Below are positions 30,045 through 32,108 of a stretch of 64,000 bases of DNA, in pieces (the stretch's first letter is position 1; every line of letters begins with the position of its first letter). Source of the DNA: Agrobacterium tumefaciens (GTDB taxonomy: Bacteria > Pseudomonadota > Alphaproteobacteria > Rhizobiales > Rhizobiaceae); NCBI GenBank assembly GCA_025560025.1, contig CP048485.1, forward strand, positions 2,771,501-2,835,500, in the 5' to 3' direction. A model generated the notes under the pieces. The model saw only the letters and a list, made by a program, of their open reading frames with translations, did not search any database and was not told the origin of the DNA. Position numbers and translations under genes: made by a program.

Positions 30045-30290
30045 TGATCTTCAGGGAGTAAGAAGGGGCCCTGCGATGATTTGTCTCGCAAGGGCAGAGG
30101 AAACAAAGGTGCCGGGCCCCTCTGGCGAGAGTTTTACGGCGCTCTCGCGATGTCGGTACCGCCTGCAAAAATTGGCCGGCGGATTAAAAACTATGAAAAA
30201 CCTGAATGTGCTTCGCGCGCGTACTTTCTGCGTGCGGCCTGACGCCTCGCGTCGGTCCGCTATCGCTCTCGTTACCGGAGGTAACCGGAC
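30045..30290 (+). ncRNA. Structured 5' leader of the TerC-family gene (candidate metal riboswitch)
   Basis: The 292-bp gap before the DUF475 gene can fold extensively. A perfect 8-bp helix (AGGGGCCC 30064-30071 with GGGCCCCT 30114-30121) encloses a hairpin (TGCGA/TCGCA, 30072-30090). It is followed by GCGAGAG/CTCTCGC (30125-30148), and CAGG at 30052 could close with CCTG at 30152. A GGGAGTA element at 30054 resembles the start of the yybP-ykoY manganese riboswitch, which often precedes TerC-family genes. The second conserved half (ACATAC region) is not evident, so the class is unproven. The structure is seen; ligand sensing is inferred. Confidence 0.5.
30271..30285 (+). promoter_or_regulatory. 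Hairpin sequestering the Shine-Dalgarno of the DUF475 gene
   Basis: GTTACC-GGA-GGTAAC, a perfect 6-bp stem with a 3-base loop, 5 bp before the ATG. The ribosome site GGAGG (30277-30281) is the loop plus the first two pairs, so a closed hairpin would block translation. This is a natural expression platform for the upstream leader. Confidence 0.6.
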
Positions 30291-31397
30291 ATGAGCGCCG
30301 CCCAGAAAACCACGCTGTCCTACTTCAAGTGGGCTTTTATCGTCACCGTCGTCGGTCTCATCCTCGGCGGCTATCTCGGCTGGGAAATGACCGGAACGGT
30401 CAGCGGCACGGCGACGATCTTCTTCATCTGTGCGGTGCTCGCCGTGCTGGAAATCTCGCTTTCCTTCGACAACGCCATCGTCAACGCCAACAAGCTCAAG
30501 GAGATGACGCCGGTCTGGCAGCATCGCTTCCTGACCTGGGGTATTCTGATTGCCGTTTTCGGCATGCGTATCGTCTTCCCGCTGCTGATCGTGGTCGTTG
30601 CCGCGAATGTCGGCCCCTGGACGGCGCTCGTCATGGCCGCCACGGAGCCGGAACGTTATTCCGAGATCATGCGTGACGCCCATCTGCCGATCGCTGCTTT
30701 CGGTGGCACCTTCCTGATGATGGTTGGCCTCAACTTCTTCTTCGACCATGAAAAGGACGTGCACTGGGTGCGTTGGATCGAGGAAAAGGCTGCGGTCTAT
30801 TCCTCCGTCAAGGGCATCGAGATCGCCTTCGTGCTGGTCGTCATGCTGATCTTCTCCCGCATCATCGGCGCCAGCGACAATCCGGAGCTCGGTCCGGTCG
30901 CGGCCAATACCTTCTTCCATTCGGCGATCTGGGGTCTTCTGACCTTTCTGCTGGTGGAAGTCGTCGGCGGTATTCTCGATCGCAGCCAGGAAGTGCTGGA
31001 AGGCGCTGCAAAGGGTGGCTTCGGTGCGTTTCTTTATCTCGAAGTGCTCGATGCGAGCTTCTCCTTCGATGGCGTTATCGGCGCCTTCGCGCTTACGCAG
31101 AACCTGTTCATCATCGCCATCGGCCTCGGTATCGGCGCCATGTATGTGCGCTCGATGACGATCATGCTGGTGGAAAAGGGAACGCTTGCCGAATACCGCT
31201 ATCTGGAGCACGGCGCTTTCTACGCGATCCTTATCCTGTCGGTCATCATGTATGTCCAGACCATGTTCCATATACCGGAGGTCATTACCGGCCTTGGTGG
31301 TGCGACCCTGATCGGCATCTCGCTCTGGTCGTCGATCCGGCATAACCGGCAGCAAAGCGCCGATGCGGTTGACGCTGCACGCGGCGCAGAAATCTGA
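30291..31397 (+). CDS. DUF475 / TerC-superfamily integral membrane protein, probable metal exporter
   Basis: 368 residues with about nine hydrophobic helices. Two acidic repeat motifs stand out: EISLSFDNAIVN near residue 53 and DASFSFDGVIGAF near residue 257. In the TerC/LysE superfamily these paired FDN/FDG motifs line the metal site, and characterised members (Alx, MeeF/MeeY) export Mn2+. DUF475 proteins themselves are not well studied, so metal export is inference. The long structured leader and the SD-masking hairpin suggest ligand-controlled translation. Followed by a strong terminator. Confidence 0.82.
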   Translation: MSAAQKTTLSYFKWAFIVTVVGLILGGYLGWEMTGTVSGTATIFFICAVLAVLEISLSFDNAIVNANKLKEMTPVWQHRFLTWGILIAVFGMRIVFPLLIVVVAANVGPWTALVMAATEPERYSEIMRDAHLPIAAFGGTFLMMVGLNFFFDHEKDVHWVRWIEEKAAVYSSVKGIEIAFVLVVMLIFSRIIGASDNPELGPVAANTFFHSAIWGLLTFLLVEVVGGILDRSQEVLEGAAKGGFGAFLYLEVLDASFSFDGVIGAFALTQNLFIIAIGLGIGAMYVRSMTIMLVEKGTLAEYRYLEHGAFYAILILSVIMYVQTMFHIPEVITGLGGATLIGISLWSSIRHNRQQSADAVDAARGAEI

Positions 31398-31410
31398 TCA
31401 GCGATGATCC

Positions 31411-31444
31411 CTGCCTTCCGCCGCTGAGGCGGAAGGCAGTTTTT
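31411..31444 (+). terminator. Rho-independent terminator of the DUF475 gene
   Basis: CTGCCTTCCGCC, loop GCTGA, GGCGGAAGGCAG: a perfect 12-bp stem followed by T5, 13 bp after the stop. Confidence 0.93.
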
Positions 31445-31567
31445 AGGCATTGAATCTTGCGTTGCCTATTTTTGTTGCCATTTATTCTTTGCGTAAAATT
31501 TAAACTGTAAAGCTGATTTGCCTTCTAAAGGCCTGTTTCTGCTCTCTTTTGTGCGCCGCAATAAAAC

Positions 31568-31583
31568 TGGCACGCTTCCTGCA
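31568..31583 (+). promoter_or_regulatory. Sigma-54 (RpoN) promoter
   Basis: TGGCACG, four bases, CTGCA: matches the -24/-12 consensus (TGGCACG-N4-TTGCA) at 11 of 12 positions with the GG and GC elements correctly spaced. Predicted transcription start near 31594. It needs an enhancer-binding protein; no clear NtrC site was recognised in the 120 bp upstream. Confidence 0.8.
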
Positions 31584-31593
31584 TCTCACATTG

Positions 31594-31691
31594 CAAGTCC
31601 AGAGGGGACACTAAAGCCCGGAAAACGGGTCGATAAATACCGCCGCGCCGCGCGACCTTAAAGGTTTGCGAAGGCGCGGCGGTTTTGTTTG
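31594..31691 (+). ncRNA. Predicted sigma-54 dependent small RNA (alpha-r8/MmgR, suhB-like)
   Basis: A transcript of about 95 nt is bounded by the -24/-12 promoter and a strong terminator. Inside are GGGGACACTAAAG, a small hairpin (CCCG-GAAAA... with CGGG, 31617-31629) and a single-stranded GTCGATAAATACC before the terminator stem. No open reading frame with a ribosome site fits. The size, the RpoN promoter and the hairpin-plus-terminator layout resemble the rhizobial alpha-r8 family (MmgR; Rfam suhB), which is nitrogen-regulated in Sinorhizobium. Family assignment is from memory of that group, not a search. The transcript could also read into the MarR gene if termination is incomplete. Confidence 0.7.
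31640..31691 (+). terminator. Terminator of the predicted sRNA
   Basis: CCGCCGCGCC (31640-31649) and GGCGCGGCGG (31673-31682) form a perfect 10-bp GC stem, with further pairing inside the 23-base loop (CGACC with GGTTTG). It is followed by TTTTGTTTG. Confidence 0.85.
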
Positions 31692-31697
31692 TGCGGT

Positions 31698-32108
31698 ATG
31701 GTTCTTGAGTTTTGCTTCCGGTTGAATGAAAACGGTGGGACAACGACTGGAAGGTTTAGCCTTTTGCCTGCAGAACTTTCGCCTACGGAGGCCCTTGGGC
31801 TTTGGCATCGTGTATCCACGGCGCAGGTAACGGCCGATGCGCCGGATTTGACCTTGCGTCAGACCGCGATCCTGCTGCAGATTTACCTCGTGCCGCCGCC
31901 CCATACTGTTCGTGGACTGGCCGCGATGCTGGGCGTGACCAAGCCGGTCATCACCCGCGCACTCGACAGTCTCGGGGCGCTGGGATTGGTTGACAGGGTG
32001 CGTGACGAGCGGGACAAGCGTAATGTTGTGATAAAACGCACGGTGGCAGGTGCGCTCTATCTGGAAAAATTCGGCGATCTGATTATTGATCAGGCGCGCA
32101 AGATCTAA
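31698..32108 (+). CDS. MarR-family transcriptional regulator
   Basis: 136-residue winged-helix protein. The recognition region TVRGLAAMLGVTKPVITRALDSLGALGLVDRVRDERDKRNVVI carries the MarR pattern, including the wing DxRDKR. The ligand is unknown. The ATG at 31698 lies seven bases after the predicted sRNA terminator; a TTG three codons earlier is an alternative. It ends 17 bp before an NlpC/P60 hydrolase gene and probably shares its transcript. Confidence 0.82.
   Translation: MVLEFCFRLNENGGTTTGRFSLLPAELSPTEALGLWHRVSTAQVTADAPDLTLRQTAILLQIYLVPPPHTVRGLAAMLGVTKPVITRALDSLGALGLVDRVRDERDKRNVVIKRTVAGALYLEKFGDLIIDQARKI

Follow-up and report, generated by a model that had tools for sequence, protein, structure and literature searches.

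A small RNA gene with a sigma-54 promoter lies between a TerC-family gene and a MarR-family gene in the window (the whole 64-kb stretch of DNA analysed, from a genome of 5.68 Mb), and sequence comparison gives good support for the reality of both the gene and its promoter. The reading that we favour, with a little better than even confidence, is that the gene specifies a stand-alone sponge of the small RNAs AbcR1 and AbcR2, which would be induced by NtrC and RpoN and would have descended from the leader of the nas (nitrate assimilation) operon. The evidence lies in the conservation of the promoter and of a 5' hairpin, in NtrC-like boxes upstream, in a position shared with nas leaders, in the lack of an ANTAR tandem in stand-alone copies and in complementarity to AbcR. 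The features of the locus are as follows.

30291..31397, plus strand: flanking TerC/DUF475 gene (PF04332 and PF03741 above cut-off)
31411..31439, plus strand: the terC gene's own terminator (12-pair stem and T run), which separates terC from the RNA gene
31463..31479, plus strand: NtrC-like box TGCCTATTTTTGTTGCC, found with the left-out de novo matrix, second half-site imperfect
31490..31506, plus strand: NtrC-like box TGCGTAAAATTTAAACT, found with the left-out de novo matrix, second half-site degenerate
31568..31583, plus strand: sigma-54 (-24/-12) promoter TGGCACGCTTCCTGCA, conserved in the copies examined, by itself at chance level
31594..31691, plus strand: predicted small RNA of ~95 nt, ends approximate (+1 rule, fold, conservation)
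31597..31609, plus strand: 5' hairpin P1, GUCC-AGAGG-GGAC, its four pairs conserved
31598..31608, plus strand: 11-mer UCCAGAGGGGA, complement of UCCCCUCUGGA in AbcR1 and AbcR2, found by genome scan
31616..31630, plus strand: second hairpin P2, GCCCG-GAAAA-CGGGU, its stem found in diverse copies
31640..31691, plus strand: Rho-independent terminator, a 10-bp GC stem with an inner hairpin followed by TTTTGTTTG (from sequence, fold and relatives)
31689..32108, plus strand: flanking MarR-family gene (PF12802 and PF01047 above cut-off), true start uncertain

The Rfam terC RNA element (RF03067, 63.3 bits) was also found on the plus strand at 30104-30165, 5' of the DUF475/TerC gene.

Promoter, fold and upstream boxes

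The promoter sequence is one mismatch away from the rhizobial sigma-54 consensus TGGCACG-N4-TTGCW, and the -24/-12 element expected of a member of the NtrC/sigma-54 regulon is thereby present at 31568-31583. Chance matches to the motif averaged 1.02 per 64 kb, with at least one in 65 of 100 shuffles, so that it is conservation, not the motif match by itself, that raises the element above chance. The A of TGGCA, the T before GC and the T after GCW were invariant in all 78 distinct promoter segments, and these three bases were required by none of the searches. A search with a 14-nt hairpin core, in which the promoter was not part of the pattern, matched 10 of 297 family genomes; TGGCA...TGC was present 27-29 nt upstream of every one of these matches. 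The start of transcription was set near 31594, 12 nt past the -12 element, by a rule that we assume to apply here.

The RNA of ~95 nt predicted from this start folds at -50.5 kcal/mol (z -5.3). Near its 3' end the arms CCGCCGCGCC (31640-31649) and GGCGCGGCGG (31673-31682) can pair, and TTTTGTTTG comes next. A terminator scan limited to loops of 3-8 nt reported just the inner part of this stem, 31666-31679; the same scan gave six sites in the window versus 1.8 in shuffles. In folds of relatives the terminator arms vary in sequence and their pairing is kept. Across 79 aligned loci, which make up 74 distinct rows, the four pairs of P1 are intact in all 296 cells and include two double changes from GC to AU. 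P2 was folded sequence by sequence, because RNAalifold on the whole alignment misregistered it and showed little covariation; folded separately, it forms in every one of 62 diverse copies, which use 53 different pairs of arms (mean z -3.2). The loop is GGAGG in place of AGAGG in three of the 79 copies (L183, L212 and L218), L183 and L218 being nas-linked. An extra conserved stretch near GUGAUCCCGGAUGUACGGACAC occurs within the terminator loop of L177-L182, L185-L192, L203, L217 and L232; many of the mrp-linked copies have such a stretch.

The preliminary description had reported a -24/-12 element and a GC-rich terminator at 31568-31691, which conservation in relatives confirms as real. It had also stated that no coding frame fits between them, and this holds for plus-strand ORFs of at least 50 aa: none overlaps 31398-31688, and the MarR frame opens at 31689. 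The true start of marR is uncertain, since there is no ATG near the start and the listed TTG at 31689 sits within the terminator tail; in relatives, marR homology starts ~90-200 nt past the hairpin core.

Expectation-maximisation upstream of 41 loci found de novo the palindrome tGCncAAAaTTTgnGCa (log-likelihood 163 versus 22-30 in six shuffled sets). Its geometry is that of TGC-N11-GCA, which has been published, with an A/T-rich centre, as the rhizobial NtrC motif (PMC10746234). A left-out matrix was made from 26 loci with the genus of the window excluded (log-likelihood 122 versus 25-31 in five shuffled sets). Among the 63,984 positions of the window, this matrix placed the boxes at 31463 and 31490 at ranks 23 and 12, respectively; when the locus itself was included in the matrix, box 31490 was the top site and box 31463 also scored. 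Box 31490 lies 78 nt upstream of the -24 element. The left-out matrix gave scores of 14.6 and 13.0 at this genome's nas promoter and of 12.2 and 10.9 upstream of its two P-II genes. In other genomes it scored 20.1 (L214) and 10.2 (L220) at glutamine-synthetase promoters and 16.8 (L224) and 19.5 (L227) at P-II promoters. The proteins behind these nas, P-II and glutamine-synthetase promoters were checked by Pfam.

Many relatives have strong NtrC-like boxes, and both boxes of the window are imperfect. Scores of at least 7 with the left-out matrix were reached by 26 of 35 Agrobacterium loci, the other nine falling below, and that level is reached by ~30 positions in the 64-kb window; the window boxes are therefore plausible rather than perfect. 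Published NtrC patterns written as regular expressions matched 3 of 36 Agrobacterium loci, and the de novo motif did better. The boxes indicate that NtrC is likely the activator of the RNA gene. A discrete sRNA with a sigma-54 promoter and a link to nitrogen, as first proposed for this locus, is thus what the conserved -24/-12 element, the NtrC-like boxes, the paired hairpins and the terminator together predict.

Distribution and the nas leader

The DNA of 31560-31700 had matches in 36 of 36 genomes of the same genus; among 24 other genomes of the order, it had two weak matches, both to the GC stem only. A loose-pattern search of named genomes yielded 70 loci, in Agrobacterium, Rhizobium, Allorhizobium, Ciceribacter, Peteryoungia and others; L068 was a chance match and was dropped, and the remaining 69 are copies. 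A search of other Rhizobiaceae had been suggested as a check; a model of the promoter and 5' hairpin matched 28 of the 109 genera of the family at E <=1e-5, and 234 of 394 family genomes at E 0.05. Weaker matches to this model can be sigma-54 promoters without the RNA; the hairpin was present in 34 of 40 loci fetched. The six loci in which it was absent were excluded from the P1 counts. Four of them are glutamine-synthetase or P-II promoters (L214, L220, L224 and L227) and two are nas leaders (L226 and L231), which keep the ANTAR hairpin and have a different first hairpin in place of GUCC-AGAGG-GGAC. An order-level search matched 5 of 199 genomes, three within the family and the other two at E 1e-4 and 9e-4. 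In Agrobacterium genomosp. 13 (L059) the RNA sequence is identical over the printed stretch, and the neighbouring proteins are 98-100% identical. One contig filed as an Arenimonas MAG carries a Ciceribacter-like copy beside mrp (L034) and is probably misbinned.

The genomic context of the copies falls into several types. The Agrobacterium copies are flanked by terC and marR (26 terC-linked loci, with marR within the stretch in 25). The 30 model loci that were read comprised 8 in the terC/marR context, 19 with mrp downstream, 14 of which also had a LuxR-type gene upstream, and 3 that were nas-linked; the 40 fetched loci comprised 12 with mrp, 7 with NasT/NasS and 21 with neither. Domains of the neighbouring proteins included those of the autoinducer-binding LuxR type, ApbC/Mrp, the ANTAR protein (NasT), NirB and a molybdopterin oxidoreductase. 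NasS and NrtA each gave a match to NMT1_2, and we take their names from the gene order. This order is LuxR-nasT-nasS-RNA-nrtA...nirB-nitrate reductase...mrp in L248 and nasT-nasS-RNA-nrtA...nirB...mrp in L249; by these orders, the mrp-side RNA of genomes lacking the operon occupies the position of the nas leader. The nasS gene adjoins both the RNA and mrp in L052, L096, L077, L092 and L221.

ANTAR proteins recognise two hairpins whose hexaloops have A at position 1 and G at position 4 (PMC3369931). Such a tandem was found in 12 of 13 nas-linked copies versus 1 of 90 others (nasS-mrp group, 0/7; mrp groups, 0/18 and 0/20; Agrobacterium, 0/28; other, 1/17), the groups consisting of loci picked to represent clades and not of every locus collected; shuffles gave a tandem in 0.1-0.3%. 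L032 and L049 were assigned to the nasS-mrp group through a shared antisense frame. The RNA of the window (L001) lacks the tandem, as do all 28 Agrobacterium copies. Promoter, terminator and 5' hairpin are kept across copies, and the exceptions without the hairpin are the nas leaders L226 and L231 mentioned above.

The nas operon of this genome is on another contig. Its leader has an AACGGC hexaloop and lacks both GUCCAGAGGGGAC and the hairpin GUCC-AGAGG-GGAC, and the single ANTAR protein of the genome is encoded in the nas locus. The mrp loci of this genome (L246) and of C58 (L245) contain a nasS-like gene, mrp, corA and the start of kup, and the RNA core was absent from both. The gene just 5' of mrp in L246 and L245 is ~40% identical to NasS, with neither nasT nor the RNA in between, and may be a relic of a nas locus.

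These comparisons suggest that the RNA probably descends from the nas operon leader. We infer the direction, from leader to small RNA, from gene order; the nas operon may instead have captured the RNA. A fuller history can be proposed tentatively, at somewhat less than even confidence. The nas leader would have carried the AbcR-sponge hairpin ahead of the NasT hairpins, and would have outlived nitrate genes that were lost or moved, as a permanently terminated, nitrate-blind sRNA without the ANTAR hairpins that under nitrogen starvation now frees the uptake regulon silenced by AbcR. The Agrobacterium copy would have moved to a new site, leaving the nasS-like gene beside mrp. Some genomes have this RNA as a leader that carries NasT-type hairpins, and others have it on its own in the matching position; this would be a concrete example of an attenuator that turned into an independent RNA, with the parts lost and the parts kept still visible.

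Complementarity to AbcR1 and AbcR2

A genome scan with the 13-nt hairpin at up to two mismatches gave 57 places in this genome and 51 in C58. The inner 11-mer has three occurrences in this genome, once in this RNA and twice as the complement, in AbcR1 and AbcR2, and the same three occurrences were found in C58. Genome G006 is taken as C58, because its alpha-r7 and its AbcR pair agree in position with C1_112676R and AbcR1 as published for C58 (PMC3738593). AbcR1 and AbcR2 both contain CUGUUCCCCUCUGGAGG. The longest runs of consecutive Watson-Crick pairs with the RNA were 11 for AbcR1, 11 for AbcR2, 5 for an MmgR-like RNA and 7 for alpha-r7. The AbcR stretch matched by the 11-mer contains aSD2, UUCCCCUC. 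This seed, one of two in AbcR1/2 that have been dissected by mutation, is part of an ultraconserved stretch and is used by AbcR1/2 to deplete aapQ (PMC8844928).

The 11-mer is kept in 72 of 79 loci. Five loci carry A to G substitutions, three in the loop and two at the end, all of which are compatible with AbcR through G.U pairs, and two carry insertions. Pairing with the genome's own AbcR amounted to 10-11 pairs (G.U allowed) in 13 of 16 other genomes checked; the exact AbcR 15-mer is present in the remaining three. That 15-mer was found in 26 of 26 picked model-positive genomes, 24 of them with the hairpin, versus 5 of 18 model-negative ones (p 2e-7, with no correction for relatedness). Genomes with and without this RNA alike conserve the AbcR seed.

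As a control, 11 pairs with AbcR1 arose in 4 of 20,000 plain shuffles of the 13-mer and in 178 of 20,000 when stem and loop were shuffled separately. Duplex energies of P1 were -24.2 kcal/mol with AbcR1, -25.7 with AbcR2 and -24.0 with the MmgR-like RNA, and 9, 0 and 2 of 300 dinucleotide shuffles, respectively, were as low; AbcR is not singled out by this energy. Duplex folds of the P1 stretch with AbcR fell below most shuffles, and those of the full-length RNA did no better than shuffles. Co-folding of the whole RNA with AbcR gained 12-14 kcal/mol and placed P1 on aSD2; P1 is a closed hairpin and would have to open for pairing. The RNA does have what is expected of a sponge, namely conserved complementarity to the seed of the sRNA that it would titrate. 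In view of the stem and loop shuffles, the duplex energies and the conservation of the seed, its action as an AbcR sponge is a strong prediction rather than a demonstrated function.

According to the proposed mechanism, sigma-54 would transcribe the ~95-nt RNA (31594-31691) when NtrC is active, that is, under nitrogen limitation, and the RNA would be ended by its own terminator. The 5' hairpin would then serve as a decoy. Contact would begin between its AGAGG loop and CCUCU in the aSD2 seed that AbcR1 and AbcR2 expose, from where pairing would spread to 11 bp, UCCAGAGGGGA with UCCCCUCUGGA. One of the seeds that AbcRs use for silencing nutrient ABC transporters would thus be occupied, and amino-acid uptake would be relieved under nitrogen shortage. 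Transcription, NtrC dependence, pairing in cells and the effect on transporters are all what we would expect from the sequences compared here. In S. meliloti, large sets of mRNAs for nutrient transport are silenced by AbcR1/2; AbcR sponges have been considered plausible and worth seeking (PMC8844928). If the reading is true, a nitrogen-controlled AbcR sponge would explain the release of uptake under nitrogen limitation.

The complementarity could also be a by-product of SD-like sequence, the RNA being an NtrC/RpoN sRNA that works through its invariant 5' hairpin on mRNAs or a protein instead of AbcR. We consider this possible, though unlikely. The SD-like sequence AGAGGGGA is indeed present, the shuffle that preserves the hairpin reaches 11 AbcR1 pairs at the rate given above, and the duplex energy with the MmgR-like RNA is equally low. 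However, the AbcR complementarity runs past the SD-like sequence into UGGA, pairing with AbcR survives the substitutions seen in the 11-mer, and in two genomes the 11-mer was found solely in this RNA or in AbcR1/2.

The other explanations concern what the RNA is attached to and what drives it. It seems improbable that the RNA serves the downstream marR-nlpC genes as a sigma-54 leader or attenuator. marR is downstream in the same direction in 25 of 26 terC-linked loci (the stretch of the 26th, L090, ends first), and mrp or nrtA is downstream in the same direction in other clades. Nevertheless a strong terminator lies between the RNA and marR, the ANTAR tandem that would allow read-through is missing from all 28 Agrobacterium copies, and elsewhere the next gene faces the RNA, as do the DeoR genes of L204 and L215 and the cyclase gene of L225; on these grounds a leader of marR is disfavoured. 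A decoy for the antiterminator NasT, that is, a sponge made of ANTAR targets, is the least probable reading of those weighed. Positional homology with nas leaders, the location of the genome's single ANTAR gene in the nas locus, and the A at 1 and G at 4 of the P1 loop AGAGG would agree with it, yet the A1/G4 hexaloop tandem is almost confined to nas-linked copies (12/13, versus 0/28 in Agrobacterium and 1/90 in non-nas copies), P1 lies outside the tandem in those nas-linked copies, and the A of its loop is G in three loci. The tandem counts disfavour this candidate. It is also doubtful, to about the degree of the marR leader, that the locus is a conserved sigma-54 RNA gene with an unrelated function that is activated by a regulator other than NtrC or is mostly silent. 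The weak NtrC boxes of 9 of 35 Agrobacterium loci would fit such a gene, but the same matrix detects the nas, P-II and glutamine-synthetase promoters.

Related RNAs

A resemblance to the alpha-r8/MmgR (suhB) family had been suggested for this RNA and was not upheld. The covariance scan with suhB (RF00519) gave no match at gathering score in the 64-kb window and nothing up to E 10 in 31380-31800, and the 10-nt single-stranded core UUUCCUCCCU printed for alpha-r8 RNAs (PMC12559287) is absent from 31594-31691. The suhB-model RNAs of this genome are located elsewhere, and two of them are AbcR1 and AbcR2. The relation of the RNA to this group is likely one of partnership with AbcR1 and AbcR2, not of membership; like it, AbcR1/2 and alpha-r8 (MmgR) are sRNAs from intergenic regions of the same genomes and have a terminator at their end. 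Identity with alpha-r7 (RF02342), which has been printed as adjoining a marR gene (PMC3927594), was rejected because the alpha-r7 of this genome lies at C1:2699320-2699459, outside the window.

One close counterpart by description is CrfA of Caulobacter crescentus, a carbon-starvation sponge of the alphaR8 RNAs SisA-D (PMC12559287). Both would be starvation-induced alphaproteobacterial RNAs in which a G/A-rich segment pairs with the anti-SD core of sibling RNAs, a pairing that is predicted in the present case. CrfA binds the UUUCCUCCCU of alphaR8, whereas here the promoter indicates nitrogen starvation and the predicted partner is AbcR1/2 through UCCCCUCUGGA; under nitrogen starvation, the present RNA would be to AbcR what CrfA is to the alphaR8 RNAs. 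The NasT-controlled nas leaders (P. denitrificans nasA, PMC5424462; ANTAR motif, PMC3369931) resemble the nas-linked copies, which sit between nasS and nrtA and have two A1/G4 hexaloop hairpins and a terminator. In contrast, the stand-alone copies lack the tandem and have an extra 5' hairpin, GUCC-AGAGG-GGAC. NfeR1, likened by description and not by sequence, is a rhizobial sRNA tied to NtrC by a TGC-N11-GCA site; NtrC represses it and its promoter is without a sigma-54 signature, whereas the sigma-54 promoter found here predicts activation (PMC10746234).

No naming of this RNA, and no title or abstract reporting an AbcR sponge, was found in the literature covered, which lacked most subscription papers and the C58 survey of Wilms et al. 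2012. Table 4 of PMC3738593, which gives 17 circular-chromosome RNAs on Northern blots from rich and AB media, has no entry close to the C58 copy, which spans about 215.09-215.19 kb of the circular chromosome. A tiling array of R. etli recorded no significant RpoN site upstream of candidate RNAs (PMC2881028), and a start-site study of S. meliloti assigned sigma-54 motifs to 112 starts (PMC3616915). The MmgR-like RNA named above, a suhB-model RNA at C2:1078150-1078219 of this genome (L235), is a possible second partner; the duplex that it can form with P1 plus the preceding CAAGUC has an energy of -24.0 kcal/mol, and 2 of 300 shuffles were as low.
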